Notes under the pieces: model-generated
The model's database searches: none
What the model saw: the letters and a program-made list of their open reading frames with translations, nothing else
What the model was told of the DNA's origin: nothing
Shown: piece by piece, positions 12,281 through 45,155 of the stretch
How the letters are laid out: the number at the start of each line of letters is the position of its first letter
Position numbering within the stretch: position 1 is the first letter of the stretch
Program-made: the position numbers and the translations under genes
From: Streptomyces sp. T12
Lineage (GTDB): Bacteria > Actinomycetota > Actinomycetes > Streptomycetales > Streptomycetaceae
Assembly (NCBI RefSeq): GCF_028736035.1
Contig: NZ_CP117866.1
Location: 6,696,001 to 6,760,000, forward strand
Length of the DNA stretch: 64,000 nt
Direction of reading: 5' to 3'

Positions 12281-12309
12281 TTCCCAGGAGTGTCTACGCG
12301 CGTTAATGT
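12281..12309 (+). promoter_or_regulatory. Promoter with nucleoside-regulon operator, BMP gene 1
   Basis: TTCCCA at 12281 and TAATGT at 12304 are separated by 17 bases, a standard sigma-70 layout. The operator-like TCTACGCGCGTTAA occupies 12293-12306, filling the spacer and overlapping the -10. The next 12 bases (ATGTGCG-CGAA type) are also shared with the second BMP promoter. Confidence 0.75.
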
Positions 12310-12358
12310 GCGCCGAACTCAGCACCCACTGCGGGGCTTGGAGAATGGGGACTTCACG

Positions 12359-13411
12359 ATGCGTCGGATATCCAAACTGACCCGTGTCGCGGTGGGGGTC
12401 GCGTCGATCGCGCTCGCTGCCACGGCGTGCGGTGGCACCAGCAGCGACAGCGGCGGCGACAGCGACGCGAGCGGCGAGGCCAAGGGTCTCGCCATCGCGT
12501 ACGACATCGGCGGTAAGGGCGACCAGTCCTTCAACGACGCCGCGTACGCCGGTCTGCAGAAGGCCCAGAAGGAGTTCGGTTACAAGACCGACGACGTCGA
12601 GCCCACCGAGGGTGAGACGGACGCCGACAAGGAGCAGCGCCTGTCCTCACTGGCCAGGCAGGGCTACAACCCCGTCATCGGCATCGGCTACGCCTACGGC
12701 CCGGCCATCACGGCCGTGTCCAAGAAGTACCCGAAGACCACCTTCGGCATTGTCGACTCCACGGTCGAGGCTGACAACGTGGCATCCCTCGTCTTCGCCG
12801 AGGAGCAGGCTTCTTACCTCGCCGGGGTCACCGCTGCCAAGGCCACCAAGTCGAACGTCGTCGGCTTCGTGGGTGGTGTGGACATCCCGCTGATCCACAA
12901 GTTCGAGGCCGGCTACAAGCAGGGCGTCCTGGACACCAACCCGAAGGTCAAGGTCCTGTCGCAGTACCTGACCCAGACCGCCGAGGAGGGTGGCTTCGCC
13001 AGCCCCGACAAGGGCAAGGCCGCCGCCGAGGGCCAGATCGAGAAGAAGGCCGACGTCGTCTACCAGGCGGCCGGTCTCTCCGGCCAGGGCGTCATCGAGG
13101 CCGCCGCGAAGGCCAAGGTCTGGGCGATCGGCGTCGACTCCGACCAGTACAAGCAGGCCGCCCTGGCGACGTACAAGAACTCCATCCTGACCTCCGCCCT
13201 CAAGGACGTCGGCGGCGCGGTCTACGCGCTGGCCAAGTCCGTCCACGACGACAAGCCGCTGACCGGCACCCAGACCTTCGACCTGAAGGTCAACGGCGTC
13301 GGCCTGGCCGAGTCCAACCCGGAGTTCGCGAAGATCGCGGGCCTGTCCGACGCCGTGGCGAAGGCCAAGGCGGGCATCATCGACGGCTCGATCAAGGTCA
13401 AGACCGAGTAG
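12359..13411 (+). CDS. BMP family nucleoside-binding lipoprotein 1
   Basis: Substrate-binding lipoprotein of a nucleoside ABC importer (Med/BMP family, like B. subtilis NupN). 350 residues; ATG 12359 gives a signal peptide with RR near the start and the lipobox AATAC, the lipidated Cys being followed by GGTSSDSGGDSD, a flexible linker. Mature motifs include GLAIAYDIGGKGDQSFND, VEPTEGETDADKEQRL, GIVDSTVEADNVAS, GGVDIPLIHKFEAGY and GVDSDQYKQAALA. It stands alone between its own operator-bearing promoter and a strong terminator, about 1.5 kb upstream of the ABC operon. The next gene is a close paralog. Confidence 0.95.
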   Translation: MRRISKLTRVAVGVASIALAATACGGTSSDSGGDSDASGEAKGLAIAYDIGGKGDQSFNDAAYAGLQKAQKEFGYKTDDVEPTEGETDADKEQRLSSLARQGYNPVIGIGYAYGPAITAVSKKYPKTTFGIVDSTVEADNVASLVFAEEQASYLAGVTAAKATKSNVVGFVGGVDIPLIHKFEAGYKQGVLDTNPKVKVLSQYLTQTAEEGGFASPDKGKAAAEGQIEKKADVVYQAAGLSGQGVIEAAAKAKVWAIGVDSDQYKQAALATYKNSILTSALKDVGGAVYALAKSVHDDKPLTGTQTFDLKVNGVGLAESNPEFAKIAGLSDAVAKAKAGIIDGSIKVKTE

Positions 13412-13427
13412 CAGCGGTCGTACGCAC

Positions 13428-13468
13428 ACAGAGCGGGCGGGCATCCGGGGGGTGCCCGCCCGCTCTGT
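13428..13468 (+). terminator. Terminator after BMP gene 1
   Basis: Perfect 16-bp stem built on CAGAGCGGGCGGGCA and its complement around a G-rich loop, followed by CGTTCC. It ends the first lipoprotein transcript. Confidence 0.85.
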
Positions 13469-13583
13469 CGTTCCCGGCTTCTCCGGATCACCCACCGCCA
13501 CCCTGCGTTTGCTGTCGGCAAGGCCTTGGTCAAGGTCTGACGTGGTGTTGGCCACGGGCGCATAACAAGGTGGACAGAAGGGG

Positions 13584-13612
13584 TTTTCAGGCAGGTCTAC
13601 GCGCGTTAATCT
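13584..13612 (+). promoter_or_regulatory. Promoter with nucleoside-regulon operator, BMP gene 2
   Basis: TTTTCA at 13584 and TAATCT at 13607 with a 17-base spacer. TCTACGCGCGTTAA at 13596-13609 is identical to the copy before BMP gene 1 and occupies the same position relative to the -10. Confidence 0.75.
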
Positions 13613-13680
13613 GCGGCGAAAGCCAGCGCCGTAGCTATCAGGCTGTCCGTCCGGCGCTTGTACGACAGGAGCACCTACAC

Positions 13681-14730
13681 ATGCGCCGGATTTCCCGGAT
13701 AACGGTCGCAGGCGCAGCGACCGCCTCTCTGGCCCTCGCGCTCTCCGCCTGTGGCGGCACCTCGACCTCGGCCTCGTCGTCGGAGTCGAAGGGGGACAAG
13801 GGCCTCGCCATCGCGTACGACGTCGGCGGCAAGGGCGACCAGTCCTTCAACGACGCCGCGTACGCGGGCCTGGAGCAGGCGAAGAAGGCGTTCCAGTACG
13901 ACACCGCCGACGTCGAGCCCACCGAGGGTGAGACGGACGCCGACAAGGAGCAGCGACTGGTGTCGCTGGCCAAGCAGGGTTACAACCCGGTCGTCGGTGT
14001 CGGCTACGCGTACGCCACCGCCGTGAAGGGCGCCGCGGAGAAGTTCCCCGACACCACCTTCGGCATCGTCGACGACTCCACCGTCGAGTCGAAGAACGTG
14101 GCCGACCTGGTCTTCTCCGAGGAGGAGGCCTCGTACCTGGCCGGTGTCGCCGCCGCCAAGAGCACCAAGACGAACACGGTCGGCTTCGTGGGCGGTGTGG
14201 ACATCCCGCTGATCCACAAGTTCCAGGCCGGCTACGAGCAGGGCGTCAAGGACACCAACCCCAAGGTCAAGGTCCTCTCCCAGTACCTCACGCAGACCGC
14301 GGAGGAGGGTGGCTTCGCCAGCCCGGACAAGGGCAAGTCGGCCGCCGAGGGCCAGATCGAGAAGAAGGCCGACGTCGTCTACGCGGCCGCCGGTCTCTCC
14401 GGCCAGGGTGTCATCGAGGCCGCCGCCGCCAACAAGGTGTGGGCGATCGGTGTCGACTCCGACCAGTACGAGCAGGAAGCCCTTGCCAAATACAAGGACT
14501 CCATCCTGACCTCGGCCATGAAGGACGTCGCCAAGGCGGTGTACAACCTGGCGAAGTCGGTCGAGGACGGCAAGCCCGAGACCGGTATCGTTCGTGGCGA
14601 TCTGAAGACCGGCCAGGTGAGCCTGTCGAACTCCAACCCGAAGTTCGCGGACGACGCCGCGGTCCAGGAAGCCATCAAGACGGCCAAGGAGAAGATCGTC
14701 AGCGGCGAGATCAAGGTCAAGACGAGCTGA
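13681..14730 (+). CDS. BMP family nucleoside-binding lipoprotein 2
   Basis: Tandem paralog of the preceding lipoprotein, 349 residues, with long identical blocks such as GGVDIPLIHKF and VLSQYLTQTAEEGGFASPDK. ATG 13681 is preceded by AGGAG. The signal peptide ends in LALALSAC, a good lipobox, followed by a Ser-rich linker. The two differ mainly in the linker, in surface segments such as the loop near YNLAKSVEDGKPETG and at the C-terminal end, so they may bind overlapping sets of purine and pyrimidine nucleosides for the shared ABC importer downstream. It has its own operator-bearing promoter and terminator. Confidence 0.95.
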   Translation: MRRISRITVAGAATASLALALSACGGTSTSASSSESKGDKGLAIAYDVGGKGDQSFNDAAYAGLEQAKKAFQYDTADVEPTEGETDADKEQRLVSLAKQGYNPVVGVGYAYATAVKGAAEKFPDTTFGIVDDSTVESKNVADLVFSEEEASYLAGVAAAKSTKTNTVGFVGGVDIPLIHKFQAGYEQGVKDTNPKVKVLSQYLTQTAEEGGFASPDKGKSAAEGQIEKKADVVYAAAGLSGQGVIEAAAANKVWAIGVDSDQYEQEALAKYKDSILTSAMKDVAKAVYNLAKSVEDGKPETGIVRGDLKTGQVSLSNSNPKFADDAAVQEAIKTAKEKIVSGEIKVKTS

Positions 14731-14776
14731 GTACAGCAACACCCTGAGCAGCGGTAACCCCGGGGTTACGTCCGCT

Positions 14777-14813
14777 CAACGGGGTACGGGGAGGATCTCC
14801 CCGTACCCCGTTG
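14777..14813 (+). terminator. Terminator after BMP gene 2
   Basis: Perfect 16-bp stem, left arm CAACGGGGTACGGGGA, loop GGATC, followed by TCGCGG. It separates the lipoprotein from the ABC operon, which has its own operator. Confidence 0.88.
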
Positions 14814-14849
14814 TCGCGGTGCGTCGGCCCCGTATCAGGCCATCGGGGC

Positions 14850-14863
14850 GCTACGCGCGTAGA
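14850..14863. promoter_or_regulatory. Nucleoside-regulon operator before the ABC operon
   Basis: GCTACGCGCGTAGA, with the full palindrome CTACGCGCGTAG. It lies about 40 bases before the translation start of the ATPase. No clear -35/-10 pair is visible here, so the exact promoter position is uncertain. Confidence 0.7.
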
Positions 14864-14890
14864 CGACCCCCGTCCCCAGGAGAGTGCGCC

Positions 14891-16533
<1,643 letters not shown>

Positions 16534-16534
<1 letters not shown>

Positions 16535-17658
16535 TGAAGAAGTTCGACAAGGAGCGCGTGCTCCTCGCCGTGGCCGGACCGGTCATCGCGCTCGCCGTGG
16601 CCTTCGTGCTCAGCGCGATCGTGCTGATCGCCTCGGGCAAGAGCCCGGTCGAGCCGTACACCCTGATGTTCGAGCAGGCCTCGTACTCCGACATCCAGGT
16701 CCTGATCATCAACCAGGCCTCGATGTACTACATCGCGGCCCTCGCGGTGGCCATCGGCTTCCGGATGAACCTGTTCAACATCGGTGTCGACGGCCAGTAC
16801 CAGCTCGCCGCCATGATGGCCGCGATCGTCGGCGCCCACGCGAACCTGCCGGCCGCTCTCCAGGTCCCGCTGCTGATCCTCACCGCGGTCTGCACCGGCG
16901 CCTTCTGGTCCGGCATCGCCGGTGTCCTCAAGGTCACCCGCGGCGTCAGCGAGGTCGTCGCGACGATCATGCTCAACGCGATCGCCACCTCCGTGATTGC
17001 CTACCTGTGGCTGCCGAACGTCTTCGGCGTCAAGGTCGGCAACAACAACACCACCGGCGAGATGCACGAGTCCGGCTGGGTCCCCGGCATCGACATGGGC
17101 GACGCCGGCGAGATCTACGGCCTGGTCTTCCTCGCCGTCCTGCTCGGCATCGGCTACTGGGTCGTCCTCAACCGCACCCGCTTCGGCTTCGACCTGCGCG
17201 CCTCCGGCGCCTCGGAGACCGCCGCGGCCGCCAGCGGTGTCGACCCCAAGCGCATGGTGCTCACCGCCATGCTGATCTCCGGCGGCATCGCGGGCCTCGC
17301 CGGCCTGCCGATCCTGCTCGGCGACACGCACACCTACAGCCTGAACTTCCCCACCGGCATCGGCTTCCTCGGCATCGGCATCGCCCTGCTCGGCCGTAAC
17401 AGCCCCGTCGGCATCGCGTTCGCCGCCCTGCTGTGGGCCTGGCTCGACAAGGCATCGCCCGAGCTGGACTTCCACGACTACGACAAGGAGATCGCGGTCA
17501 TCATGCAGGGCCTGATCGTGCTCTCCGTCGTCGTCTCCTACGAGGCCGTACGCGAGTGGGGCCTGCGCCGCCAGCAGCGCCGGGTCGGCGCGGAACTGGC
17601 CGCCGGTCATGTGCTCGGTGCCGACAACAACACCACGAAGGAGGTGGCAGGCCGATGA
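16534..17658 (+). CDS. Nucleoside ABC transporter permease 1
   Basis: Membrane subunit of the BPD_transp_2 family (NupP-like), 374 residues with about nine hydrophobic segments. Recognisable segments are NLFNIGVDGQYQLAAM near residue 80, GVSEVVATIMLNAIA near 135, and the cytoplasmic coupling stretch FDLRASGASETAAAASGV near 225. A large periplasmic loop (VFGVKVGNNNTTGEMHESG) lies in the middle, as in NupP homologs. Start ATG overlaps the ATPase stop by one base and its end overlaps the second permease by four bases, so all subunits are made from one coupled transcript. Confidence 0.93.
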
Positions 17659-18932
17659 CCACCCCGCAGACTTCAGCGGTCGATGTCAACCAGCCCACGC
17701 TGCAGCCCGCGGCTCCGACGGGCCGCCGCCTGTCGTGGCCCGTCCTGCTGCTGGTCATCGCCGGAGCCCTGGCGCTGACCTCGATCGTCCGCATCATCAC
17801 CGGCGCCGACGGCATCACCAACGTCAGCCAGATGTCCACCGCGCTCCAGCTCGCCGTGCCGATCGGCCTCGCCGGTCTCGGCGGTCTGTGGGCCGAGCGG
17901 GCGGGTGTGGTCAACATCGGCCTCGAGGGCATGATGATCCTCGGCACCTGGTTCGGCGCCTGGGCCGGCTTCCAGTGGGGCCCGTGGACCGGTGTCCTGG
18001 TCGGCATCGCCGGCGGCGCGATCGGCGGCCTGCTGCACGCGTTCGTCACCGTCACCTTCAACGTCAACCACATCGTCTCCGGTGTGGCCATCAACATCCT
18101 CGCCCTGGGCGCCACCCGCTACCTCGCGCCCCTCGCCTTCGAGGGCCACGCGGGCGGCTCCGCCAAGCAGTCCCCGGCGGTCGACTCGCTCGGCAACTTC
18201 ACCGTGCCGGGCCTGTCCGACGCGCTGCGGGACCTCAACAACCAGGGCTGGTTCTTCATCTCGGACATCGCCGGTCTGCTCGGCGGCCTGGTCACCAACG
18301 TCTCCTGGCTGACCCTGATCGCCGTCGCGCTGATCCCCGCCACCTGGTGGATCCTGTGGCGCACCTCCTTCGGACTGCGCCTGCGTTCCTGCGGTGAGAA
18401 CCCGGTGGCGGCCGAGTCCCTCGGCGTGAACGTCTACAAGTACAAGTACATCGCCGTGGTCATCTCCGGCGGCCTGGCCGGCCTCGGCGGCGTCTTCCTG
18501 TCCATCGTGGCCAACCCCTTCTACCTGGAGGGCCAGGTCAGCGGCCGCGGCTACATCGGTCTCGCCGCGATGATCTTCGGTAACTGGATGCCGGGCGGCC
18601 TCGCCCTCGGCGCCGGTCTGTTCGGCTACACCGACAGCCTCAACCTGCGCGGCGGCTCCACGAACGTCCACGCCCTGCTGCTGCTCGGCGCGCTTTTGCT
18701 GATCATCGGCGCCATCTGGCTCGTGATCACCAAGAAGTACGCCTCGTCGATGATCACCGCAGTCGTCGGCGCCCTGGTGTTCGCCTGGTACGCCAGCACC
18801 AACGAGGTCCCGAACCAGGTCGTCTCCGCCACGCCCTACGTCATCACGCTCATCGTCCTCACGCTGTCCGCGCAACGCCTCAGGATGCCGAAGGCGGACG
18901 GCCTGCCGTACCGGAAGGGCCAGGGCAAGTGA
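17655..18932 (+). CDS. Nucleoside ABC transporter permease 2
   Basis: Second BPD_transp_2 permease (NupQ-like), 425 residues with about ten membrane segments. ERAGVVNIGLEGMMILG near residue 80 is the family hallmark, followed by NVNHIVSGVAINILALG, and the coupling segment FGLRLRSCGENPVAAESLGV near 240. Starts at ATG 17655 in an ATGA overlap with permease 1 and ends in a GTGA overlap with cytidine deaminase. The N-terminal ~30 residues before the first hydrophobic segment are polar. Confidence 0.93.
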   Translation: MTTPQTSAVDVNQPTLQPAAPTGRRLSWPVLLLVIAGALALTSIVRIITGADGITNVSQMSTALQLAVPIGLAGLGGLWAERAGVVNIGLEGMMILGTWFGAWAGFQWGPWTGVLVGIAGGAIGGLLHAFVTVTFNVNHIVSGVAINILALGATRYLAPLAFEGHAGGSAKQSPAVDSLGNFTVPGLSDALRDLNNQGWFFISDIAGLLGGLVTNVSWLTLIAVALIPATWWILWRTSFGLRLRSCGENPVAAESLGVNVYKYKYIAVVISGGLAGLGGVFLSIVANPFYLEGQVSGRGYIGLAAMIFGNWMPGGLALGAGLFGYTDSLNLRGGSTNVHALLLLGALLLIIGAIWLVITKKYASSMITAVVGALVFAWYASTNEVPNQVVSATPYVITLIVLTLSAQRLRMPKADGLPYRKGQGK

Positions 18933-19336
18933 CCCCGGCCGCCTCCCACGACGTCGACTGGGACAAGCTGCGCGCGGCGGCCCGGGACGCCATGTCCCGC
19001 GCGTACGCCCCGTACTCCGGCTACCCGGTCGGCGTCGCGGCCCTGGTCGACGACGGCCGCATGATCACCGGCTGCAACGTCGAGAACGCGTCGTACGGCC
19101 TCGGCCTGTGCGCCGAGTGCGGGCTGGTCTCGGAGCTGCAGAACACGGGGGGCGGCAGGCTGACGCACTTCACGTGCGTCGACGGCAAGGGCGACATCCT
19201 CGTCCCGTGCGGCCGCTGCCGACAGCTGCTGTACGAGTTCGGCGGCCCGGACCTGCTGCTGGAGACCCCGGCGGGCACCCTGCCGCTCTCGGAGATGCTG
19301 CCCCAGGCCTTCGGGCCGGGCCACCTCACCAAGTAA
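18929..19336 (+). CDS. cdd: Cytidine deaminase
   Basis: Converts cytidine and deoxycytidine to uridine and deoxyuridine. 135 residues, the usual length of the tetrameric form. Zinc ligands and the catalytic glutamate are in LCAECGLV near residue 65 and VPCGRCRQLL near 95; PYSGYPVGVAALVDDG and GCNVENASYG are the standard substrate-side segments. Its GTG start overlaps the permease stop (GTGA). Being coupled to the importer, it probably acts on nucleosides as they enter. Confidence 0.95.
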   Translation: MTPAASHDVDWDKLRAAARDAMSRAYAPYSGYPVGVAALVDDGRMITGCNVENASYGLGLCAECGLVSELQNTGGGRLTHFTCVDGKGDILVPCGRCRQLLYEFGGPDLLLETPAGTLPLSEMLPQAFGPGHLTK

Positions 19337-19441: not shown

Positions 19442-20725
<1,284 letters not shown>

Positions 20726-25174: not shown

Positions 25175-26449
25175 TCAGGCCGCCGTCGCCAGCTGCTGTC
25201 GCTGAAGTCGCGCGGCCCGCGTCCCGAACACCGTGATCGTCACCACGCCGAGCACCGCCAGCAGGCCGACCCCGACCGTCCCGGCCCAGCCGCCCGCGTG
25301 GAAGGCCACCGCGCCGACCGTGCTGCCCGCGCTGGAGCCGATGTAGTAGGCGGACTGGTAGAGCGCCGAGGCCTGGGCGCGGCCGTGTGTCGCCGTCTTG
25401 CTGACCGCCGAGGACGCCACCGCGTGTCCGGCGAAGAAGCCGCCGGTGATCAGGACCAGGCCGAGAAGGACCAGCGGGAGCGAGCCCGCCAGGGACAGCA
25501 GCAGACCCGCCGCCGTCGTCGCGCCCGCCGCGTACAGGGCGCCCCGGCGGCCCAGGCGGCCCACCAGCCGCCCCGCCGTCGACGCCGACACCGTACCGAC
25601 CAGGTACACCAGGAAGACCGAGCCGATGATGCCCTGGGGGAGGCCGAACGGCGCCTCCGTCAGGCGGTAGCCGATCACCGTGTACACGCCGCCGAAGATC
25701 GTCATGAACAGGGCGCCGATCGCGTACAGGCGGCACAGCAGCGGGTTGGCGAGGTGGTCGCGGACCGTGCGGGCCAGGACCCGCGGGCGCAGCGAGCCCC
25801 GCTTGAAGTGGCGCGGTGCCGGGAGCAGCAGCCGGAAGGCCACCGCGCACGCGACCGCGATCACGCCGATCACGCCGATCGCGACCCGCCAGCCCCACTC
25901 CTGCGCGACCCAGCCGGTGATCACCCGGCCGCTCATGCCGCCGACGCTGTTGCCCGCGACGAACAGTCCGATCGCCGTGACCAGCGCCTTCGGGCGGACC
26001 TCCTCGGCCAGATAGGCCGTGGCCGACGCCGGCAGACCCGCCAGCGCCGCGCCCTGGACCGCCCGCAGCACGACCAGGGCGGTCAGGTTCGGCGCGAAGG
26101 GGACCAGCAGCCCGACCGTCACCGCGACCGCCAGCGACGCCGTCATGACCGTACGGCGTCCGAACCGCTCCGACAGCGCGCTCATCGGCAGCACGAACAG
26201 GGCCAGACCGCCCGTCGCCGCCGCCACCGTCCAGCTCGCCTCGCTCGCCACAACCCCGAACTCGCCCGAGATCAGCGGCAGCAGGGCCTGCGTGGAGTAG
26301 AGGAGCGCGAAGGTCGCGACACCGGCGAGGAAGAGGGCGAAGCTCATCCGGCGGTAGCCGGGGCCGCCCGGGGCCATGCGGGAGTCGGCGAGAGGGACAG
26401 CGGGTGCGGCGCCCACGGTGGTGGACGCCCCGGTACTGGCGGGAGACAT
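25175..26449 (-). CDS. MFS transporter (YnfM-like)
   Basis: Major facilitator superfamily permease, 424 residues with 12 predicted helices. LSERFGRRTVMTAS near residue 93 is the loop 2-3 motif. LRAVQGAALAGLPASATAYLAEE near 125 is the motif of helix 4-5; GRLVGRLGRRGALYAAG near 285 is its second-half counterpart. It resembles YnfM/arabinose-efflux type drug or metabolite exporters. It is divergent from a LysR regulator across 63 bases, the usual arrangement for a regulator and its target. Substrate unknown. Confidence 0.9.
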   Translation of the reverse strand: MSPASTGASTTVGAAPAVPLADSRMAPGGPGYRRMSFALFLAGVATFALLYSTQALLPLISGEFGVVASEASWTVAAATGGLALFVLPMSALSERFGRRTVMTASLAVAVTVGLLVPFAPNLTALVVLRAVQGAALAGLPASATAYLAEEVRPKALVTAIGLFVAGNSVGGMSGRVITGWVAQEWGWRVAIGVIGVIAVACAVAFRLLLPAPRHFKRGSLRPRVLARTVRDHLANPLLCRLYAIGALFMTIFGGVYTVIGYRLTEAPFGLPQGIIGSVFLVYLVGTVSASTAGRLVGRLGRRGALYAAGATTAAGLLLSLAGSLPLVLLGLVLITGGFFAGHAVASSAVSKTATHGRAQASALYQSAYYIGSSAGSTVGAVAFHAGGWAGTVGVGLLAVLGVVTITVFGTRAARLQRQQLATAA

Positions 26450-26482
26450 GCTTCGAAGCTACGTACGATCCCGCTGATCCGT

Positions 26483-26498
26483 CCAATGCATGGATTGG
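26483..26498. promoter_or_regulatory. Inverted repeat between MFS and LysR genes
   Basis: CCAAT-N6-ATTGG lies in the 63-base gap of the divergent pair. A CATAAT hexamer begins two bases later and ends seven bases before the LysR ATG, so the regulator may be leaderless. The repeat is a natural candidate for the LysR binding site. Confidence 0.55.
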
Positions 26499-26512
26499 CC
26501 ATAATCGTTCCC

Positions 26513-27466
26513 ATGGAGCATCAGCAGAGGTCACGAGCTCGCCTGTCACCATCCAGTGACACAGAAGACATGGTGATGTTGCTGGCGCCCCGCCTCGCGT
26601 ACTTCGCCGGCGTCGCCCGCACCGAGCACGTCACCCGGGCCGCGCAGGAGATGCAGGTCCCGCAGTCCACGCTCTCCCGTGCCATGGTCCGCCTCGAACA
26701 GGACCTGGGCGTCGACCTGTTCGCCCGCCACGGCCGTACGGTCTCGCTGACGCCCGCCGGCCGCACCTTCCTCGGCTCCGTCGAACGTGCCCTCGCGGAG
26801 ATCGAGCGCGCCGCCGACGAGGTCCGCGCCGACGCCGACCCGGCCACCGGCAAGGTCGCCTTCGGCTTCCTGCACACCATGGGCGCGGAAACGGTCCCCG
26901 GCCTGATCCACGCCTTCCGCGCCGACCACCCCCGCATCCGCTTCAGCCTCGTCCAGAACTACGGCGAGGCGATGATCGAGCGTCTGCGCTCCGGTGAGCT
27001 CGACCTGTGCCTGACGTCCCCGGTACCGGACGCCCCCGACCTGGTGGCCCGCCGCGTGGACGAACAGAAACTCCGTCTGGTCGTCCCGGCCGACCACCGT
27101 CTGGCGGCGCGCAAACGCGTCCGCCTGGCCGAGGCGGCCGACGAGACCTTCGTGACCCTGGAGCCCGGCTACGGCATGCGCCGCATCACCGACGACCTGT
27201 GCAGACAAGCGGGGTTCAAGCCCCGCATCGCCTTCGAGGGCGAGGAGGCGGAGACGCTGCGCGGACTGGTGGCGGCGGGGCTCGGAGTCGCCCTGCTGCC
27301 GCCACCGGCGGTGCCCCGCCCGGGCGTGGTCGAGCTGACGGTCACGGCTCCACGAGCGGTGCGGGAAATCGGTGTCGCCTGGTTGGAGGGCCGCCCGGAC
27401 ACGCCGCCGGTGGCGGCCTTCAAGAAGTTCCTGCTCTCGAAGAAGGGCAACCTGCTCCCCGCCTAG
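26513..27466 (+). CDS. LysR family transcriptional regulator
   Basis: 317 residues. The N-terminal winged helix covers residues ~25-85: LAYFAGVARTEHVTRAAQEM, then QSTLSRAMVRLEQDLGVDLF and RTVSLTPAGRTFL. A two-lobed effector domain follows (from KVAFGFLHTMG near 110). It probably controls the divergent MFS gene, based on arrangement alone. The true start is ATG 26513; the much longer open frame upstream is the complement of the MFS gene. It converges on the hydrolase 17 bases after its stop, across a GGGGCCGGCCCC palindrome. Confidence 0.9.
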   Translation: MEHQQRSRARLSPSSDTEDMVMLLAPRLAYFAGVARTEHVTRAAQEMQVPQSTLSRAMVRLEQDLGVDLFARHGRTVSLTPAGRTFLGSVERALAEIERAADEVRADADPATGKVAFGFLHTMGAETVPGLIHAFRADHPRIRFSLVQNYGEAMIERLRSGELDLCLTSPVPDAPDLVARRVDEQKLRLVVPADHRLAARKRVRLAEAADETFVTLEPGYGMRRITDDLCRQAGFKPRIAFEGEEAETLRGLVAAGLGVALLPPPAVPRPGVVELTVTAPRAVREIGVAWLEGRPDTPPVAAFKKFLLSKKGNLLPA

Positions 27467-28350: not shown

Positions 28351-28373
28351 TCTACGCGCGTAGGCGTTACAGT
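28351..28373 (+). promoter_or_regulatory. Nucleoside-regulon operator and -10 box before add
   Basis: TCTACGCGCGTAGG at 28351-28364 is followed after three bases by TACAGT (28368-28373), a good -10. The ATG of add begins six bases later, so the message is probably leaderless and the operator covers the -35/spacer region. Confidence 0.75.
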
Positions 28374-28379
28374 GCGAAA

Positions 28380-29543
28380 ATGACGAGCCAGACTGCCCAG
28401 AAGGCGACCATCCCGAGCTCGGACCAGATCCGCCGGGCGCCGAAGGTTCTGCTGCACGACCACCTCGACGGCGGGTTGCGCCCCGGCACCGTCGTCGAGC
28501 TCGCCCGCGCGTCGGGCTACACCCAGCTCCCCGAGACCGACCCCGACAAGCTCGGCCTGTGGTTCCGCGAGGCGGCCGACTCCGGCTCCCTGGAGCGGTA
28601 CTTGGAGACCTTCTCGCACACCGTCGGCGTGATGCAGACCCGCGAGGCCCTCGTCCGGGTCGCGCGCGAGTGCGCCGAGGACCTCGCCGAGGACGGGGTC
28701 GTCTACGCCGAGGTGCGGTACGCGCCCGAACAGCACCTCGAAGGCGGGCTCACCCTCGAAGAGGTCGTCGAGGCCGTCAACGAGGGCTTCCGGGAGGGCG
28801 AGCGCATCGCGCGCGAGAACGGCCTCCGCATCCGCGTGGGTGCCCTGCTCACCGCCATGCGGCACGCCGCCCGCGCCCTGGAGATCGCCGAACTCGCCAA
28901 CCGCTACCGCGACCTGGGCGTCGTCGGCTTCGACATCGCGGGCGCCGAGGCCGGCCACCCGCCCACCCGGCACCTCGACGCCTTCGAGTACCTCAAGCGC
29001 GAGAACAACCACTTCACCATCCACGCGGGCGAGGCCTTCGGCCTGCCGTCCATCTGGCAGGCCCTGCAGTGGTGCGGCGCCGACCGGCTCGGGCACGGGG
29101 TGCGCATCATCGACGACATCCAGGTGCACGCCGACGGCTCGGTGAAGCTCGGCCGGCTCGCCTCGTACGTACGGGACAAGCGCATCCCGCTGGAGCTGTG
29201 CCCCAGCTCCAACCTCCAGACGGGCGCCGCCGACTCCTACGCAGCCCACCCCATCGGACTGCTGCGCCGGCTGCACTTCCGGGCCACCGTGAACACCGAC
29301 AACCGTCTCATGTCCCACACCAGCATGAGCCGGGAATTCGAGCACCTTGTCGAGGCATTCGGCTACACGCTCGACGACATGCAGTGGTTCTCCGTCAATG
29401 CGATGAAATCATCGTTCATTCCTTTCGATGAACGGCTCGCGATGATCAATGACGTCATCAAGCCCGGATATGCCGAACTGAAGTCCGAGTGGCTTTTCCG
29501 ACAGGCGACGTCTACCAGCGACTCTGCGGCTGAGGAGGAGTGA
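28380..29543 (+). CDS. add: Adenosine deaminase
   Basis: Hydrolytic deamination of adenosine and deoxyadenosine to inosine and deoxyinosine. 387 residues. Zinc-binding [14 protein letters not shown] lies near residue 25, where the usual HxHLDG pair is seen; the catalytic Glu is in [10 protein letters not shown] near 220; RLGHGVRI near 245 and SSNLQTG near 280 follow, and the Asp pair is in [13 protein letters not shown] near 305. ATG 28380 sits directly behind a -10 box. Products would be substrates for the purine nucleoside phosphorylase at 44293-45117, which carries the same operator. Confidence 0.95.
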
Positions 29544-34268: not shown

Positions 34269-34397
34269 GGGGGTCATTCTGGCCCATGCGGGGCGGTCTT
34301 TCGACACCTGTACGAGCAGTACGCCTACGCGCACGTAGCGCGTTCGTCTGTGACCGGACTGTCCCGCGCCTGGGAGCCACCTCTGACGCAGGCCCCT

Positions 34398-36597: not shown

Positions 36598-37536
36598 TCA
36601 GTACGACGAGCCGGACGCGCCCAGCGACCCCGTCGGGTGCCAGACCGTCTTGGTCTCCAGGAACGCCGTCATGCGGTCGATGCCGGGGGTGGCCGTGTAA
36701 TCCACAGGCTGTGGACGCAGGACGCGCTTCAGGTTGTCCGCCGCGGCGATCTCCAGTTCCTTCGCCAGTACGTCGTCGGCGCCGGCCAGGTCGATCGCGT
36801 TGACGTCCTGGTGCGCGGCCAGCGGCGTCGCGATCTCCGCCGTACGGCCGGAGAGGATGTTGACGACACCGCCGGGGAGGTCGGAGGTGGCCAGGACCTC
36901 GCCGAGGGAGAGGGCAGGGAGCGGGGACTTCTCGGACGCCACCACGATCGCCGTGTTGCCGGTGGCGATCACCGGGGCGACGACCGAGACCAGGCCCAGG
37001 AAGGACGACTCCTGCGGGGCCAGGACGGCCACCACGCCCGTCGGCTCGGGGGAGGAGAGGTTGAAGAACGGGCCCGCGACCGGGTTGCCACCGCCGACCA
37101 CCTGGGCGATCTTGTCGGTCCAGCCCGCGTACCAGACCCAGCGGTCGATCGCCGCGTCGACCTGCGCCGCCGCCTTCGCTGTATTTGATTTTGCTTTCGC
37201 GGGCGACAGGCCCTCCGCGTCGGCCACTTCACGGACGTACTGCTCGCGGCGGCCCTCCAGCATCTCGGCGATGCGGTAGAGGATCTGACCGCGGTTGTAC
37301 GCCGTCGCGCCGGACCACGCCCCGAACGCCTTGCGGGCGGCCACGACCGCGTCACGGGCGTCCTTGCGGGACGACAGCGGTACGTTCGCCAGCCAGTTGC
37401 CCTTTGCGTCGGTCACCTCGTACACCCGGCCGCTCTCGGAACGCGGGAACTTCCCGCCGACGTACAGCTTGTAGGTCTTGAAGACGGAGAGCCGCTCGGC
37501 GCGCTCGGTCTTGTCGTTCTTGTCAGCTGTGCTCAT
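36598..37536 (-). CDS. Truncated aldehyde dehydrogenase paralog without catalytic domain
   Basis: 312 residues homologous to the N-terminal and cofactor-binding part of aldehyde dehydrogenases. YKLYVGGKFPRSESGRVYEV and WVWYAGWTDKI align with the upstream full-length enzyme. The loop corresponding to FTGST is LAGADD, the catalytic Glu segment is replaced by NLKRVLRPQP, and no F-N-x-G-Q-x-C-C motif exists. ATG 37536 follows the TAA of the full-length gene with no gap. The pair (485 + 312 residues) mirrors ALDH16, where a classical domain is followed by a catalytically dead one. It probably binds its partner as a structural subunit. Confidence 0.85.
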   Translation of the reverse strand: MSTADKNDKTERAERLSVFKTYKLYVGGKFPRSESGRVYEVTDAKGNWLANVPLSSRKDARDAVVAARKAFGAWSGATAYNRGQILYRIAEMLEGRREQYVREVADAEGLSPAKAKSNTAKAAAQVDAAIDRWVWYAGWTDKIAQVVGGGNPVAGPFFNLSSPEPTGVVAVLAPQESSFLGLVSVVAPVIATGNTAIVVASEKSPLPALSLGEVLATSDLPGGVVNILSGRTAEIATPLAAHQDVNAIDLAGADDVLAKELEIAAADNLKRVLRPQPVDYTATPGIDRMTAFLETKTVWHPTGSLGASGSSY

Positions 37537-38994
37537 TTATCGCTCGCCCTCCGGGCTCGACGGGGCGAGGTACGCCTCCAGGCCGTGGCGGCCGCCCTCG
37601 CGGCCGAAGCCCGACTCCTTGTAGCCGCCGAACGGCGAGGTCGGGTCGAACTTGTTGAACGTGTTGGACCAGACGACGCCTGCGCGGAGCTTGCCGGCCA
37701 CGGCCAGGATCCGCGAACCCTTCTCCGTCCAGATGCCCGCCGACAGGCCGTACGGGGTGTTGTTGGCCTTGGCGACGGCCTCGTCCGGCGTGCGGAAGGT
37801 GAGGACCGACAGGACCGGGCCGAAGATCTCGTCGCGGGCGATCCGGTGCGCCTGGGTGACGTTCGTGAAGAGCGTGGGCGCGAACCAGTAGCCGGAGGTC
37901 GGGATCTCGCAGGCCGGGGACCAGCGCTCGGCGCCCTCCGCCTCGCCCTGCTCGACGAGCGAGGTGATGCGCGAGAGCTGCTCCTCGGAGTTGATCGCGC
38001 CGATGTCCGTGTTCTTGTCGAGCGGGTCGCCGAGGCGGAGGGTCGACAGGCGGCGCTTCAGGGAGTCCAGCAGCTCGTCCTGGATCGACTCCTGGACCAG
38101 CAGACGGCTGCCCGCGCAGCAGACCTGGCCCTGGTTGAAGAAGATTCCGTTGACGATCCCCTCCACCGCCTGGTCGATCGGGGCGTCGTCGAAGACGATG
38201 TTGGCGCCCTTGCCACCGAGTTCGAGGGTGACCTTCTTGTGGGTGCCGGCGACGGTCCGCGCGATCTCCTTGCCGACGGCCGTGGAGCCGGTGAAGGCGA
38301 CCTTGTTCACGTCCGGGTGCGCGACGAGCGCGGCGCCCGCGTCGCCGTATCCGGGAAGGATGTTGACGACGCCCTTGGGCAGGCCCGCCTGGCGGCAGAT
38401 GTCCGCGAAGAACAGGGCGGAGAGAGGGGTCGTCTCGGCGGGCTTGAGCACCACCGTGTTGCCGGTGGCGAGTGCCGGGGCGATCTTCCAGGCCAGCATC
38501 AGCAGCGGGAAGTTCCAGGGGATGACCTGGCCGGCGACGCCGAGGGGCTTCGCGTTCGGCCCGAAGCCGGCGTGCTCCAGCTTGTCGGCCCAGCCCGCGT
38601 AGTAGAAGAAGTGCGCGGCGACCAGCGGGAGGTCGGCGTCGCGGGTCTCCTTGATCGGCTTGCCGTTGTCCAGGGTCTCCAGGACCGCCAGCTCACGGCT
38701 GCGCTCCTGGATGATCCGGGCGATGCGGAACAGGTACTTCGCACGCTCGGAGCCGGGCAGCGCCGACCACTTCCCGAAAGCCTTGCGGGCGGCCTTCACC
38801 GCGCGGTCGACGTCCGCCTCGCCGGCCTGGGCGACCTCGGAGAGGACCTCCTCGGTGGACGGGGAGACGGTCTTGAAGACCTTGCCGTCCGCCGCCTCCA
38901 CGAACTCGCCGTCGATGAACAGGCCGTACGAGGGCGCGATGTCGACGATTCCGCGGGACTCGGGGGCCGGTGCGTATTCGAATGCCGATGCCAT
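37537..38994 (-). CDS. Aldehyde dehydrogenase
   Basis: A full-length NAD(P)-dependent aldehyde dehydrogenase, 485 residues. VIPWNFPLLML near residue 155, FTGSTAVGKEI near 230, catalytic Glu in VTLELGGKGANIV near 255, and catalytic Cys in FFNQGQVCCAGSR near 290. EIFGPVLSV near 385 is also present. It follows deoC by five bases, so both are under the deoC operator. DeoC releases acetaldehyde from deoxyribose-5-phosphate, and oxidation to acetate (or acetyl-CoA precursors) is the natural role. The dead paralog downstream is expected to be its partner. Confidence 0.92.
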   Translation of the reverse strand: MASAFEYAPAPESRGIVDIAPSYGLFIDGEFVEAADGKVFKTVSPSTEEVLSEVAQAGEADVDRAVKAARKAFGKWSALPGSERAKYLFRIARIIQERSRELAVLETLDNGKPIKETRDADLPLVAAHFFYYAGWADKLEHAGFGPNAKPLGVAGQVIPWNFPLLMLAWKIAPALATGNTVVLKPAETTPLSALFFADICRQAGLPKGVVNILPGYGDAGAALVAHPDVNKVAFTGSTAVGKEIARTVAGTHKKVTLELGGKGANIVFDDAPIDQAVEGIVNGIFFNQGQVCCAGSRLLVQESIQDELLDSLKRRLSTLRLGDPLDKNTDIGAINSEEQLSRITSLVEQGEAEGAERWSPACEIPTSGYWFAPTLFTNVTQAHRIARDEIFGPVLSVLTFRTPDEAVAKANNTPYGLSAGIWTEKGSRILAVAGKLRAGVVWSNTFNKFDPTSPFGGYKESGFGREGGRHGLEAYLAPSSPEGER

Positions 38995-38999: not shown

Positions 39000-39998
39000 T
39001 CAGTCCACCGTCACGTAGTCGGGGCCGGAGTAGCGGCCGGTGGCCAGCTTCTGACGCTGCATCAGCAGGTCGTTCAGGAGCGAGGAGGCGCCGAAGCGGA
39101 ACCAGTGGTTGCCCAGCCAGTCCTCACCCGCGGTCTCCTTGACCAGGACGAGGAACTTGATGGCGTCCTTGGTCGTCCTGATGCCGCCGGCCGGCTTCAC
39201 GCCGACCTGGATGCCGGTCTGGGCGCGGAAGTCGCGTACCGCTTCCAGCATAAGGAGGGTGTTCGCGGGGGTGGCGTTCACGGCGACCTTGCCGGTGGAC
39301 GTCTTGATGAAGTCGGCGCCCGCCAGCATGCCGAGCCAGCTCGCCCGCCGGATGTTGTCGTACGTCGACAGCTCGCCGGTCTCGAAGATGACCTTGAGGC
39401 GGGCGCTCGCCGCGCAGGCCTCCTTCACGGCGACGATCTCGTCGTAGACCTTCATGTAGTTGCCCGCGAGGAACGCCCCGCGGTCGATGACCATGTCGAT
39501 CTCGTCCGCACCGGCCGCGACGGCGTCGCGCACGTCGGCCAGCTTCACGGCGAGGGCCGCGCGGCCGGCCGGGAAGGCGGTGGCGACCGAGGCGACCTTC
39601 ACGGTCGAGCCGGCGACGGCCTCCTTGGCGGTGGCCACCATGTCCGGGTAGACGCAGACGGCCGCGGTCGCCGGAGTCGTACGGTCGGTGGGGTCGGGGT
39701 GGACCGCCTTGGCGCCGAGCGCCCGGACCTTGCCCGGGGTGTCCGCGCCTTCCAGCGTCGTCAGGTCGACCATCGAGATGGCGAGGTCGATGGCGTACGC
39801 CTTCGCGGTCGTCTTGATGGAACGGGTGCCGAGGGACGCGGCACGCCCCTCCAGGCCGACCGCGTCGACGCCGGGCAGCCCGTGGAGGAAGCGGCGCAGC
39901 GTGCTGTCGGACGCGGCGACGTCCGTGAGGGCATGAGCGCTGGGGGTGCCTCCCACGCTTTCGGCGGTGGGGGAGGGTGCATTGGTGGGCATGGTCAC
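39000..39998 (-). CDS. deoC: Deoxyribose-phosphate aldolase
   Basis: Cleaves 2-deoxyribose-5-phosphate to glyceraldehyde-3-phosphate and acetaldehyde. About 332 residues. Conserved segments are AVCVYPDMVATAKE, VKVASVATAFPAG, EIDMVIDRGAFLAGNY, LKVIFETGELS, FIKTSTGKVAVNATPAN (Schiff-base Lys) and VGVKPAGGIRTTKDAIKF. GTG 39998 is six bases behind TATGCT, a -10 box, so a leaderless start is likely; ATG 39992 is two codons on. The ~70-residue N-terminal extension includes a stretch encoded by a palindromic repeat (39944-39978). First gene of an operon with two aldehyde dehydrogenase genes. Confidence 0.95.
   Translation of the reverse strand: MTMPTNAPSPTAESVGGTPSAHALTDVAASDSTLRRFLHGLPGVDAVGLEGRAASLGTRSIKTTAKAYAIDLAISMVDLTTLEGADTPGKVRALGAKAVHPDPTDRTTPATAAVCVYPDMVATAKEAVAGSTVKVASVATAFPAGRAALAVKLADVRDAVAAGADEIDMVIDRGAFLAGNYMKVYDEIVAVKEACAASARLKVIFETGELSTYDNIRRASWLGMLAGADFIKTSTGKVAVNATPANTLLMLEAVRDFRAQTGIQVGVKPAGGIRTTKDAIKFLVLVKETAGEDWLGNHWFRFGASSLLNDLLMQRQKLATGRYSGPDYVTVD
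39944..39978. repeat. Palindromic repeat in frame in deoC
   Basis: CTGGGGGTGCCTCCCAC, a short centre, then GGTGGGGGAGG, an imperfect inverted repeat of the same flavour as 5887-5913. It encodes part of the poorly conserved N-terminus of DeoC. Confidence 0.6.
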
Positions 39999-40004: not shown

Positions 40005-40024
40005 AGCATATCTACGCGCGTAGC
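40005..40024 (-). promoter_or_regulatory. Nucleoside-regulon operator and -10 box before deoC
   Basis: The palindrome CTACGCGCGTAG (14-base site 40011-40024) is directly followed, on the minus strand, by TATGCT at 40010-40005. Six bases later is the GTG of deoC. Binding would block the -35 and -10 contacts. Confidence 0.78.
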
Positions 40025-42325: not shown

Positions 42326-42350
42326 AACGAGCTGGAGAGTCGCGTACGGC

Positions 42351-43997
42351 TCAGATGCCGGCCGCCGCCGACAGGTCCCGCTTGATCGTCTCGAGCAGGT
42401 CGGTCGCCTTGGCGCGGGCGGCCGGGAGGTCGGCGTGGGCCGGGACCGGGACGACGACCTCCAGGTAGCACTTCAGCTTGGGCTCCGTGCCGCTGGGGCG
42501 GACGATGACGCGGGCGCCCTCGAGGGTGTAGCGCAGGCCGTCGGTGGGCGGGAGCGTGTCCGTGCCCTGGGTGAGGTCCTCGGCGCGGGTGATGGCCAGG
42601 CCGGCGAGCTCGGTCGGCGGCTGCTCGCGCAGCCGGCGCATGGCGTTCGCGATGACCGACAGGTCCTCAACGCGGACCGAGAGCTGGTCGGTGGCGTGCA
42701 GGCCGTGCTCCACGGCGAGGTCGTCGAGGAGGTCGAGGAGCGTGCGGCCCTCGGCCTTGAGGACGGACGCCAGCTCGGTGATCAGCAGGGCGGCGGTGAT
42801 GCCGTCCTTGTCGCGTACGCCCTCGGGGTCGACGCAGTAGCCGAGGGCCTCCTCGTAGCCGTAGCGCAGGCCGTCGACGCGGGCGATCCACTTGAAGCCG
42901 GTGAGGGTCTCCTCGTACGGCAGTCCCGCCTTCTCGGCGATACGGCCGAGGAGGGAGGAGGAGACGATCGACTCGGCGAAGGTGCCCTGTGCTCCGCGGC
43001 TCACCAGGTGCGCGGCGAGCAGCGCCCCCACCTCGTCGCCGCGCAGCATCCGCCAGTCCTCGCCGTCCTTGACGGCCGCGGCACAGCGGTCGGCGTCGGG
43101 GTCGTTGGCGATGACGAGGTCGGGGTCGGTCTCGCGGGCCTTGGCGAAGGCCAGGTCCATCGCACCGGGCTCTTCCGGGTTGGGGAAGGCGACGGTGGGG
43201 AAGTCCGGGTCCGGGTCGGCCTGCTCGGCGACCAGGGCGGGGGCGGGGAAGCCGGCGCGGGCGAAGGCGGCGAGGAGGACGTCCTTGCCGACGCCGTGCA
43301 TCGCCGTGTAGACGGTGCGGGCGGTGCGCGGGGAGCCGGCGGACAGGACCGCGTCCGTGCGGGCGAGGTAGGCGTCCAGGACGCTGTCGTCGAGGGTTTC
43401 CCAGCCTTCGGTGGGGCGGGGGACGACGGTCAGGGACGGGACGGCGGCGATCTCTTCCGCGATGTCGATGTCCGCGGGCGGGACGATCTGGGAGCCGTCG
43501 CCGAGGTAGACCTTGTAGCCGTTGTCGCGGGGCGGGTTGTGGCTGGCGGTGACCTCCACGCCGGCGACCGCGCCGAGGTGCCTTATGGCGTACGCGAGGA
43601 CCGGGGTGGGCAGGGGGCGGGGGAGTACGGCTGCGCGGAGACCGGCGCCGGTCATGACGGCGGCCGTGTCGCGGGCGAAGTCCTCCGACTTGTGGCGGGC
43701 GTCGTAGCCGATGACGACGAGGCCCTCACCCCTTTCCCCGTGGGGGGGACCCTGCTTCTTGAGGTACGCCGCGAGGCCGGCGGCGGCGCGGATGACGACG
43801 GTGCGGTTCATCCGCATGGGCCCGGCGCCGAGTTCCCCGCGCAGGCCCGCGGTGCCGAACTGGAGGGTGCCGCTGAAGCGTGCGGCGAGCTCTTCGATGT
43901 CCGCGGCGTCGATGAGCTTGGCGAGCTCTTCGCGGGTCTCCGGGTCCGGGTCCTCGGCGAGCCAGGCCTGGGCCCGGGCGATGAGATCGTCGTGCAC
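42351..43997 (-). CDS. Phosphohexomutase family enzyme, possible phosphopentomutase
   Basis: 548 residues, alpha-D-phosphohexomutase superfamily, usually annotated phosphomannomutase. FGTAGLRGELGAG near residue 50 is the N-terminal signature; catalytic phosphoserine loop VEVTASHNPPRDNGYKVY near 150; metal loop VIANDPDADRCAAA near 285; GDEVGALLAAHL near 310; and the phosphate-binding RPSGTEPKLKCY near 515. Located between deoC and purine nucleoside phosphorylase, it may isomerise ribose-1- or deoxyribose-1-phosphate, because no classical deoB is in the window; members of this superfamily doing that are known. GTG 43997 has GAGAGG nine bases before it. Confidence 0.88.
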   Translation of the reverse strand: MHDDLIARAQAWLAEDPDPETREELAKLIDAADIEELAARFSGTLQFGTAGLRGELGAGPMRMNRTVVIRAAAGLAAYLKKQGPPHGERGEGLVVIGYDARHKSEDFARDTAAVMTGAGLRAAVLPRPLPTPVLAYAIRHLGAVAGVEVTASHNPPRDNGYKVYLGDGSQIVPPADIDIAEEIAAVPSLTVVPRPTEGWETLDDSVLDAYLARTDAVLSAGSPRTARTVYTAMHGVGKDVLLAAFARAGFPAPALVAEQADPDPDFPTVAFPNPEEPGAMDLAFAKARETDPDLVIANDPDADRCAAAVKDGEDWRMLRGDEVGALLAAHLVSRGAQGTFAESIVSSSLLGRIAEKAGLPYEETLTGFKWIARVDGLRYGYEEALGYCVDPEGVRDKDGITAALLITELASVLKAEGRTLLDLLDDLAVEHGLHATDQLSVRVEDLSVIANAMRRLREQPPTELAGLAITRAEDLTQGTDTLPPTDGLRYTLEGARVIVRPSGTEPKLKCYLEVVVPVPAHADLPAARAKATDLLETIKRDLSAAAGI

Positions 43998-44052
43998 GTC
44001 GGTCAACCTCTCGTTCGTGTCGTTCGGTGCGGGGCGGGGGGCGGGCTTTCTT

Positions 44053-44282
44053 CGCCCCCGCCGCCCCTACCCGTCCCATCCCCAGGGGCGCTGCCCCTTC
44101 GACCCCGCCAGGGGGCTCTGCCCCCTGGACCCCCGCTCCTCAAACGCCGGAGGGGCTGGTTTTTCAGCCCGTCTGGGGGTGCCCCCTCTGGGGGAGTTTG
44201 AGGACGAGGCCCGTTCAGGGCCGAAGCGGGGGTCTGGGGGCGGCAGCCCCCAGGGACGGGACGGGTAGGGGCGGCGGGGGCG
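44053..44282. repeat. 230-bp composite inverted-repeat element
   Basis: Perfect 25-bp terminal inverted repeats (44053-44077 and 44258-44282) made of CCCCGCCGCCCCTACCCGTC-type sequence. Inside are three hairpins (AGGGGC-GCT-GCCCCT type) and the string CTGGGGGTGCCCCCTCTGGGGGAG. A related single arm lies at 60890-61022. No coding capacity. It occupies most of the gap between the nucleoside phosphorylase and mutase genes. Confidence 0.8.
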
Positions 44283-44292
44283 GGGAAACGGC

Positions 44293-45117
44293 TTACAGCC
44301 GCCCGAGCACCTGCGCCAGCAGCGAGCCCATCTGCGTCGCCGAGTCGCGGCCCGCCTGCAGGACCTCCTCGTGGTTGAGGGGCTCGCCCGTCATACCCGC
44401 CGCGAGGTTCGTCACCAGGGAGATGCCCAGGACCTCGGCACCGGCCTCGCGCGCCGCGATGGCTTCGAGGACCGTCGACATGCCCACCAGGTCCGCGCCG
44501 ATGACGCGGGCCATGCGGATCTCGGCCGGAGTCTCGTAGTGCGGGCCGGGGAACTGGGCGTAGACGCCCTCCTCCAGCGTGGGGTCGATCTCCTTGCACA
44601 GGGCGCGCAGGCGCGGCGAGTACAGGTCCGTCAGGTCGACGAAGTTCGCGCCGACGATCGGGGACGTCGCCGTGAGGTTGATGTGGTCGCTGATCAGGAC
44701 CGGCTGGCCGGGGCGCATGCCCTCGCGCAGGCCCCCGCAGCCGTTGGTGAGGACGATCGTCTTGCAGCCGGCCGCGACCGCGGTGCGGACGCCATGGGCC
44801 ACGGCCGCCACGCCACGGCCCTCGTAGTAGTGGGTGCGGCCCAGGAAGACCAGCGCGCGCTTGTTGCCGATCTTGTACGAGCGGATCTTGCCGCCGTGCC
44901 CTTCCACCGCCGGCGGCGGGAAACCGGGCAGCTCGGTGACCTGGAACTCGGCATCGGGTGCGCCGAGGGCATCCACGGCCGGTGCCCAGCCGGAGCCCAT
45001 CACGAGGGCGACGTCGTGGGTCTCGGCGCCGGTGAGTTCGCGCAGGCGCGCGGCGGCGGCGTCGGCGGCGGCGTGGGGGTCGCCCTGGATGTCGTCCGGA
45101 AGAAGAGATGCGTTCAC
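44293..45117 (-). CDS. Purine nucleoside phosphorylase
   Basis: Trimeric-type PNP (PNP/MTAP family I), 274 residues. [11 protein letters not shown] near residue 37 gives the phosphate loop; [16 protein letters not shown] near 65; [10 protein letters not shown] near 95; [25 protein letters not shown] near 122; [33 protein letters not shown] near 190, covering the purine site; and LVTNLAAGM near 240. It cleaves inosine, guanosine and deoxy forms to base plus (deoxy)ribose-1-phosphate. GTG 45117 lies seven bases after TACCCT, a leaderless arrangement. Followed by the phosphohexomutase on the same strand. Confidence 0.95.
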
Positions 45118-45124
45118 GCGACTG

Positions 45125-45155
45125 AGGGTAGCCGGTTTGGGCCTACGCGCGTAGA
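45125..45155 (-). promoter_or_regulatory. Nucleoside-regulon operator and -10 box before PNP
   Basis: The 14-base site at 45142-45155 contains CTACGCGCGTAG. On the minus strand, eleven bases later comes TACCCT (45130-45125), then seven bases to the GTG. The operator overlaps where the -35 element would be. Confidence 0.78.

Follow-up and report, generated by a model that had tools for sequence, protein, structure and literature searches.

Do the nucleoside-salvage genes of Streptomyces sp. T12 share a common regulator? The question is raised by a 64,000-nucleotide (nt) stretch of its genome (contig NZ_CP117866.1, positions 6,696,001 to 6,760,000; hereafter the window), in which an initial annotation had noticed one palindrome close to the starts of six units for nucleoside import or breakdown. 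Our analysis suggests that this palindrome, CTACGCGCGTAG, is the operator of a nucleic-acid scavenging regulon found throughout the Streptomycetaceae, to which a dimeric transcription factor would bind, most likely as a repressor. We put the probability of this reading at about three in four.

A palindrome at six nucleoside units

All six sites were found at the annotated positions (Table 1). The 14-mer quoted in the initial annotation holds in its 12-mer core, the perfect palindrome CTACGCGCGTAG, which is exact at 14851, 28352, 40012 and 45143. Its outer T and A are not strict, each of these four sites missing one of the two, and the two sites before the BMP lipoprotein genes read CTACGCGCGTTA rather than CTACGCGCGTAG. 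The looser form of the operator would be CTACGCGCGTNR, in which one half stays near perfect. As claimed, the sites lie close to gene starts, with gaps of 53, 72, 76, 16, 13 and 25 nt to the likely starts in the order of Table 1, the third value depending on the uncertain start of the ABC ATPase gene. For this gene (region 14877-14939), the GTG that follows a good ribosome site at ~14884 is not in frame; the in-frame GTG is at 14939. A similar string near 34325, CTACGCGCACGTAG, had been rightly set aside, since its half-sites are two bases further apart; it occupies 34321-34340, close to two-component genes at ~33.6 kb.

With up to two mismatches, six sites in the window are not unusual (4.6 expected; a count of 6 is reached in 30 of 100 shuffles). 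The exact word, present four times, is expected only 0.002-0.004 times under Markov models of order 1-3, and CTACGCGCGTNR gives 10 strand matches at six places versus 0.12 expected, a count that none of 100 shuffles reaches. The complete 11.46-Mb genome contains five exact copies, while the same pattern read backwards, used as a control, has none. Four of the five are those in the window, before the ABC-cdd-deoA operon, add, deoC and the purine nucleoside phosphorylase (PNP) gene, and the fifth falls in codons 4-7 of a second adenosine deaminase gene (add2), 4 Mb away. The exact word is thus specific to nucleoside genes (5/5 copies) and not scattered before unrelated ones, but the sites with one mismatch are mixed, and only 13 of the 37 sites with at most one mismatch are linked to nucleotide or nucleic-acid metabolism.

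Conservation in the Streptomycetaceae and wider candidate members

The exact word occurs in all 101 Streptomyces genomes, with 2-6 copies each compared with 0-3 for the control, and in 30 of 31 genomes of the family, covering 16 of 17 genera. The sole exception, G443, carries CTACGCGAGTAG at deoC and CTACGCGCGTTA at PNP. A comparison of orthologous promoters, proposed in the initial annotation, showed that the site is kept across the family. Among the named Streptomyces deoC loci (the best 80 of 564; 1.39 Mb in total), the distance from the deoC start to an exact site is at most 160 nt in 80/80, and the same limit holds for the PNP start in all 53 loci with that gene; an earlier count with end filters gave 73/74 and 53/53. 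These loci contain 134 exact copies, of which 133 stand at deoC or PNP and the remaining one 348 nt before deoC. A gap of 13 nt separates site and deoC in 70 of the 73 loci first measured, whereas the divergent gene lies at varying distances.

At the other window units, all nine BMP2 sites share the CTACGCGCGTTA form and all ten ABC sites are exact, both sets having been collected because they bear a site, and the 16-nt gap to add is found in 7/7 collected sites. At the BMP, nucleotidase and deoxyribonuclease (DNase) genes, the half CTACGC is kept and variation falls on the two final bases of the other half; purS and the deeper genera show variation at inner bases too. In the deeper genera the sites keep their promoters and differ by single bases, such as CTACGCGTGTAG at deoC and CTACGCGCATAG at PNP. 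In one other genus (L314, L317, L319), CTACGCGCGTTG is located between cdd and deoA, a place where none was seen in 11/11 Streptomyces loci.

Outside the family the word is at background level. In a class-wide draw, a copy was found in 32 of 246 genomes, namely all 22 of the genus and 10 of the 224 others. Nine exact copies in seven of these ten genomes (three in G184 and one in each of the other six) lack a nucleoside-gene homologue in their vicinity, also when the search was repeated with a wider reference. At the level of the order, CTACGCGCGTWR occurs in 104/104 genomes of the genus, whereas 15 genomes of two other families carry it only at the background frequency; in these two sister families, seven of nine sites, in seven genomes, were checked and none is linked to a nucleoside gene, the remaining two being in G344. 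Likewise, 104 regions upstream of nucleoside genes in 20 outside genomes, some of them within operons, contain no site with up to two mismatches and no noteworthy recurrent palindrome. A short cupin-like protein (~118 residues, IPVPGGK..DE.VGRV) recurs near deoA and add in many other actinobacteria (L363, L365, L368-L376), with Cupin_2 in the sole one scanned (L375).

The six units were borne out, but the regulon is probably larger, including add2, two secreted nucleotidases, a secreted DNase and purS. Besides the five exact copies, the 13 linked genome sites comprise two at nucleotidase-like genes (L009 with a twin-arginine translocation signal, L017 with a signal by eye; both above the Pfam and below the NCBIfam cut-off), one at an ExeM/NucH-like DNase (L008; match below cut-off, the locus end cutting the gene) and one overlapping the initial codons of a gene whose product has a nuclease-type GmrSD_C domain (L010). 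The others lie at a Xan_ur permease (L014), purS (L275), an Exo_endo_phos protein (L288) and a PhoX phosphatase (L287), the last being more loosely linked to nucleotide or nucleic-acid metabolism.

Forty off-cluster regions from 14 Streptomyces genomes were chosen because they bear a site, and show where sites fall rather than how frequent they are at a promoter. Orthologues of the two nucleotidases follow the site in 15 of them, and the glyoxalase-add2 operon or add2 itself holds it in seven. Two lie between purS and lsr2, one before an ExeM-like gene, one upstream of a GmrSD_C gene and 11 elsewhere. The remaining three fall within a HAD gene, and this site (L015, L235, L244, L264) is in coding sequence and was set aside. 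In the add2 operon the operator takes two alternative positions, either an exact site in codons 4-7 in some species, or CTACGCGCGTTG ~70 nt before the preceding glyoxalase gene (L005 1491-1522, L242, L243, L251).

Two tests are free of selection for site-bearing regions. Upstream of purS, in 30 of the 31 family genomes (one gave no purS match), a site with at most one mismatch is present in 16/30 and with at most two in 21/30, compared with 0-3/30 for six control words. Upstream of the secreted ExeM/NucH-like DNase gene (best 30 of 41 genomes), 30/30 loci have a site with no more than two mismatches, compared with 0-2/30 for six control words.

These scattered sites bear on whether the palindrome is instead a nucleoid, methylation or chromosome-structure element kept by its location. 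Four of the five exact copies do lie within 31 kb, but the fifth is 4 Mb off at add2, several more conserved sites are found away from the cluster, in front of nucleotidase, purS and DNase genes, and the spacing to deoC is nearly fixed while the other flank varies. Such an element is hardly credible here.

Some other sites were noted. Exact sites precede purN-purH, a second purine-synthesis unit, in two genera (L326 7086, L330 6924). Secreted-looking proteins with an ABC_transp_aux-like part (L327 7050-8804, L328 5299-7017, L316 7178-8032) are preceded at 39-104 nt by an exact site; they come from three genomes in two other genera and are possibly further members. Near-matching or exact sites are also found ~0.8-2 kb from SCO1979-type regulator or DUF397-like genes in three genomes (L018, L240, L108), one of which belongs to another family. 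With genes as common as these, the proximity may be due to chance, and the L018 site near its SCO1979-type regulator falls in an unaligned gap when two species are compared.

Table 1. Putative operators and genes considered in the window
Feature	Position	Strand	Remark
Operator CTACGCGCGTTA upstream of BMP lipoprotein gene 1	12294..12305	+	overlaps likely -10 TAATGT, by eye; likely start ATG 12359
Operator CTACGCGCGTTA upstream of BMP lipoprotein gene 2	13597..13608	+	overlaps likely -10 TAATCT, by eye
Operator CTACGCGCGTAG upstream of ABC ATPase-permease-permease-cdd-deoA operon	14851..14862	.	
Operator CTACGCGCGTAG upstream of add	28352..28363	.	ATG 16 nt on; likely -10 TACAGT just downstream, by eye
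Operator CTACGCGCGTAG upstream of minus-strand deoC-aldehyde dehydrogenase genes	40012..40023	.	ATG 13 nt on
Operator CTACGCGCGTAG upstream of minus-strand PNP gene	45143..45154	.	start 25 nt on
BMP/PnrA-type substrate-binding lipoprotein 1	12359..13411	+	Pfam Bmp; start predicted from sequence
BMP/PnrA-type substrate-binding lipoprotein 2	13681..14730	+	Pfam Bmp
ABC transporter ATPase	14939..16534	+	start uncertain
Two BPD_transp_2 permeases	16534..18932	+	
Cytidine deaminase (cdd)	18929..19336	+	
Pyrimidine nucleoside phosphorylase (deoA)	19442..20725	+	
MFS transporter	25175-26377		divergent to LysR gene
LysR-family regulator	26570..27466	+	adjoins add; second positional candidate; promoter without site
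Adenosine deaminase (add)	28380..29543	+	
Two aldehyde dehydrogenases	36598..38994	-	downstream of deoC
Deoxyribose-phosphate aldolase (deoC)	39000..39998	-	TIGR00126 above cut-off
Purine nucleoside phosphorylase	44293..45117	-	TIGR01698 above cut-off
DeoR/GlpR-family regulator	47399..48343	+	positional candidate; not supported as binder

Mode of action and candidate regulators

The placement of the operator over or beside the likely -10 or -35 elements suggests a repressor site. By eye, the end of the site is shared with the likely -10 at both BMP genes and abuts it at add, while at PNP and purS the site stands in the -35 region, 12-18 nt upstream of the likely -10. Taken over all units, the sites extend from the -35 region to slightly within the coding sequence, which is compatible with steric repression, and a repressor is favoured because a protein at each of these positions would block RNA polymerase. 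Activators can also bind the -35 region, where the PNP and purS sites stand, and an activator, or a protein with both roles, might bind instead. However, the BMP sites overlap the likely -10, the add site abuts it, the deoC site lies 13 nt before the ATG and the add2 site is in codons 4-7, so one activator geometry hardly fits all positions. We consider activation unlikely, and continue with a repressor as the preferred reading.

Which protein would act as this repressor? The initial annotation named the DeoR-family protein as a positional candidate, noting correctly that its promoter has no site and allowing for a distant regulator. Its gene lies 2-7 kb from PNP and deoC and occurs in 31/31 family genomes of 17 genera, the same spread as the operator, and its HTH_DeoR and DeoRC domains suit sugar-phosphate sensing, with which DeoR-family domains are typically associated. 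It could in principle bind CTACGCGCGTAG and repress on sensing a sugar phosphate such as deoxyribose 5-phosphate. An operator in the own promoter is common, but not obligatory, for DeoR-family regulators; the DeoR promoter has one in 0/52 named loci and 0/12 further family loci (all with at least three mismatches). Moreover, among 17 DeoR homologues outside the family (47-70% identity), the helix SEVTVRRD is kept in 15 and the motif is found at 0/17 loci, and five long ABC ATPases beside such homologues best match monosaccharide-transporter models, below the cut-off. Because the promoter has no site in any genome examined and homologues with the same helix also go without it, DeoR is a poor candidate. 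On this promoter and homologue-locus evidence we rejected it as the leading binder, and its assignment to the operator seems decidedly unlikely.

The DeoR promoter (window 47250-47400) instead holds other, strongly conserved blocks, TGCGAACA.CTTC... and GCTGAAA.CAGACGGTCG, over 53 sequences, which are probably its own control region. Elements of the TATGATCGG type lie upstream of DeoR homologues of another family (L109-L111) and are perhaps the operator of that DeoR branch.

LysR proteins usually act on a divergent promoter and follow the T-N11-A operator rule, and the E. coli PunR-PunC pair combines a LysR-type regulator with an MFS-type transporter. PunR is described as the regulator of a purine nucleoside transporter (PMC8376909). 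The LysR-family protein of the window, together with its divergent MFS gene, resembles this pair, and its gene neighbours add both here and in each of the six further family genomes whose flank was long enough to show it. Against a role at the present operator, the best match in the LysR/MFS divergent promoter has at least four mismatches on both sides (window, L312, L314, L317, L319, L322, L324), and the 12-bp palindrome does not fit T-N11-A. We regard LysR as a very improbable regulator of these units. The LysR and MFS genes (25175-27466) are conserved as a pair in several genera and, by analogy with PunR-PunC, may form a purine-nucleoside transporter with its own regulator.

No regulator is shared between families in 20 deoA neighbourhoods of other actinobacteria, for which part of the genes were assessed by eye alone. 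Four loci of one family (L374-L377) contain MarR-family genes, two of another (L368, L370) contain GntR-aminotransferase genes, and L363 and L379 hold single TetR and MarR genes. Since the DeoR and LysR promoters are without the site and none recurs beside deoA, the regulator is probably encoded elsewhere and family-specific, or has changed its specificity in the Streptomycetaceae.

Several points weigh against an operator of this reach. No regulator was identified among the DeoR, LysR and deoA-neighbour candidates. The -10 and -35 placement described in the initial annotation was reproduced by eye, but a consensus scan of 12150-15000 marks no promoter at its three sites. Some genus genomes have only two or three exact copies. 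The conservation at BMP, ABC, add and the nucleotidases was counted on collected sites, without a denominator, while denominators exist for deoC, PNP, purS and the DNase. At purS, 9/30 family genomes have no site with up to two mismatches within 150 nt (G435, G438, G442, G443, G448, G451, G453, G456, G461), and at the DNase gene only 6/30 loci have one with at most one mismatch. Finally, allowing one mismatch gives 37 genome sites versus 44 for the reversed control, so single-mismatch matches alone prove nothing; of the 37, 10 fall inside genes, and 14 (including one at a carbon-nitrogen hydrolase, L290) are of intergenic or uncertain position with no tie to nucleotide or nucleic-acid metabolism, 24 in all. 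For the control, 15 of its 44 sites were assigned a position, 12 within genes and three outside, a comparison of placement only.

Relation to known systems and meaning of the putative regulon

We propose a model for the regulon. A dimeric transcription factor would bind the operator and repress the units, and a signal derived from nucleosides or nucleotides, suggested by the gene content only, would release it. The release would switch on secreted enzymes (the DNase and the nucleotidases), nucleoside import by the BMP-ABC system, the deaminases and phosphorylases, and the use of deoxyribose through deoC and the aldehyde dehydrogenases, and the weaker purS site would couple these to purine synthesis. 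The regulon thus looks as though it covers the breakdown of nucleic acids outside the cell, the import of the products and their catabolism, with a link to purine synthesis. What the sequences show directly is the sites themselves and how rare, specific and conserved the exact word is, whereas binding by a protein, repression and the inducer are deduced.

A comparable arrangement is known from E. coli, where DeoR and CytR control nucleoside catabolism through a shared operator at unlinked uptake and breakdown genes (cdd, deoA, deoC, nucleoside phosphorylase). The operator sequence differs, and here a secreted DNase, nucleotidases, adenosine deaminases and purS seem to be included. LacI-type operators are even palindromes with a central CG and usually an A at the third base from the centre. 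The present operator has the central CG and a C at the third base. This base would set it apart from the operators of E. coli PurR, a LacI-family protein, which is similar in that one regulator touches purine synthesis and other purine genes. Bacillus NupR (GntR/HutC) is described as a dedicated nucleoside-transport regulator in a Gram-positive bacterium, and is set apart by acting mainly on nucleoside transport (PMC9430930).

In Streptomyces, PhoP, ArgR and XdhR act on individual genes of this field (the 5'-nucleotidase SCO4152, SCO2015 and xdh, respectively), and none is described for the whole set in the available text of the sources (PMC7866108, PMC5839063, PMC3293853, PMC6627660). The ArgR site printed for SCO2015 differs from the motif (PMC5839063). 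No paper on the operator was found among the open-access papers searched, a search that did not cover subscription journals or RegPrecise and so does not show absence from print.

Judged by gene order, genes of the window and the regulon probably correspond to the following S. coelicolor SCO tags. SCO4920 is the central gene of a module labelled sigma-factor-rich in an inferred network, described in passages that make no mention of nucleosides (PMC3224704), and it appears in the regulator table of a glucose-repression study (PMC4848846). Other sources name SCO4885 a putative nucleoside-binding lipoprotein (PMC6593405), report SCO2015 and SCO5662 as higher in an argR mutant (PMC3293853), list an ArgR site for SCO2015 (PMC5839063) and count the SCO4914 promoter among WblC-enriched ones (PMC7157823). 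SCO4152 is called PhoP-regulated (PMC7866108) and, in a Lon study in which cell death was reported as well, shows a 2.7-fold rise at 72 h (PMC13033682). In the portions available, SAV4189 shows no binding to an add promoter (PMC6036246), a purine review names XdhR and not PurR (PMC6627660), and Streptomyces is mentioned only for IMP dehydrogenase in PMC10912719.

Together, the operator is real and of a known kind, is unreported in the open-access papers searched, and has an unusual reach, while its mechanism is what we infer. Tentatively, and with less confidence than even odds, we suggest that one regulator specific to the Streptomycetaceae runs a complete DNA-eating programme, from DNases and nucleotidases through import to salvage or burning with purine synthesis kept in step, and thereby governs how the mycelium recycles DNA from parts that die during development. 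If true, Streptomyces would have a dedicated, family-wide regulon for nucleic acids as food, and nucleoside salvage, purine supply (hence the precursors of guanosine tetraphosphate (ppGpp) and cyclic di-GMP (c-di-GMP)) and the reuse of DNA from dying hyphae would hang on one switch. The very clean operator would then make the missing regulator easy to catch by pull-down, and the nucleoside-responsive promoters would be usable as tools.

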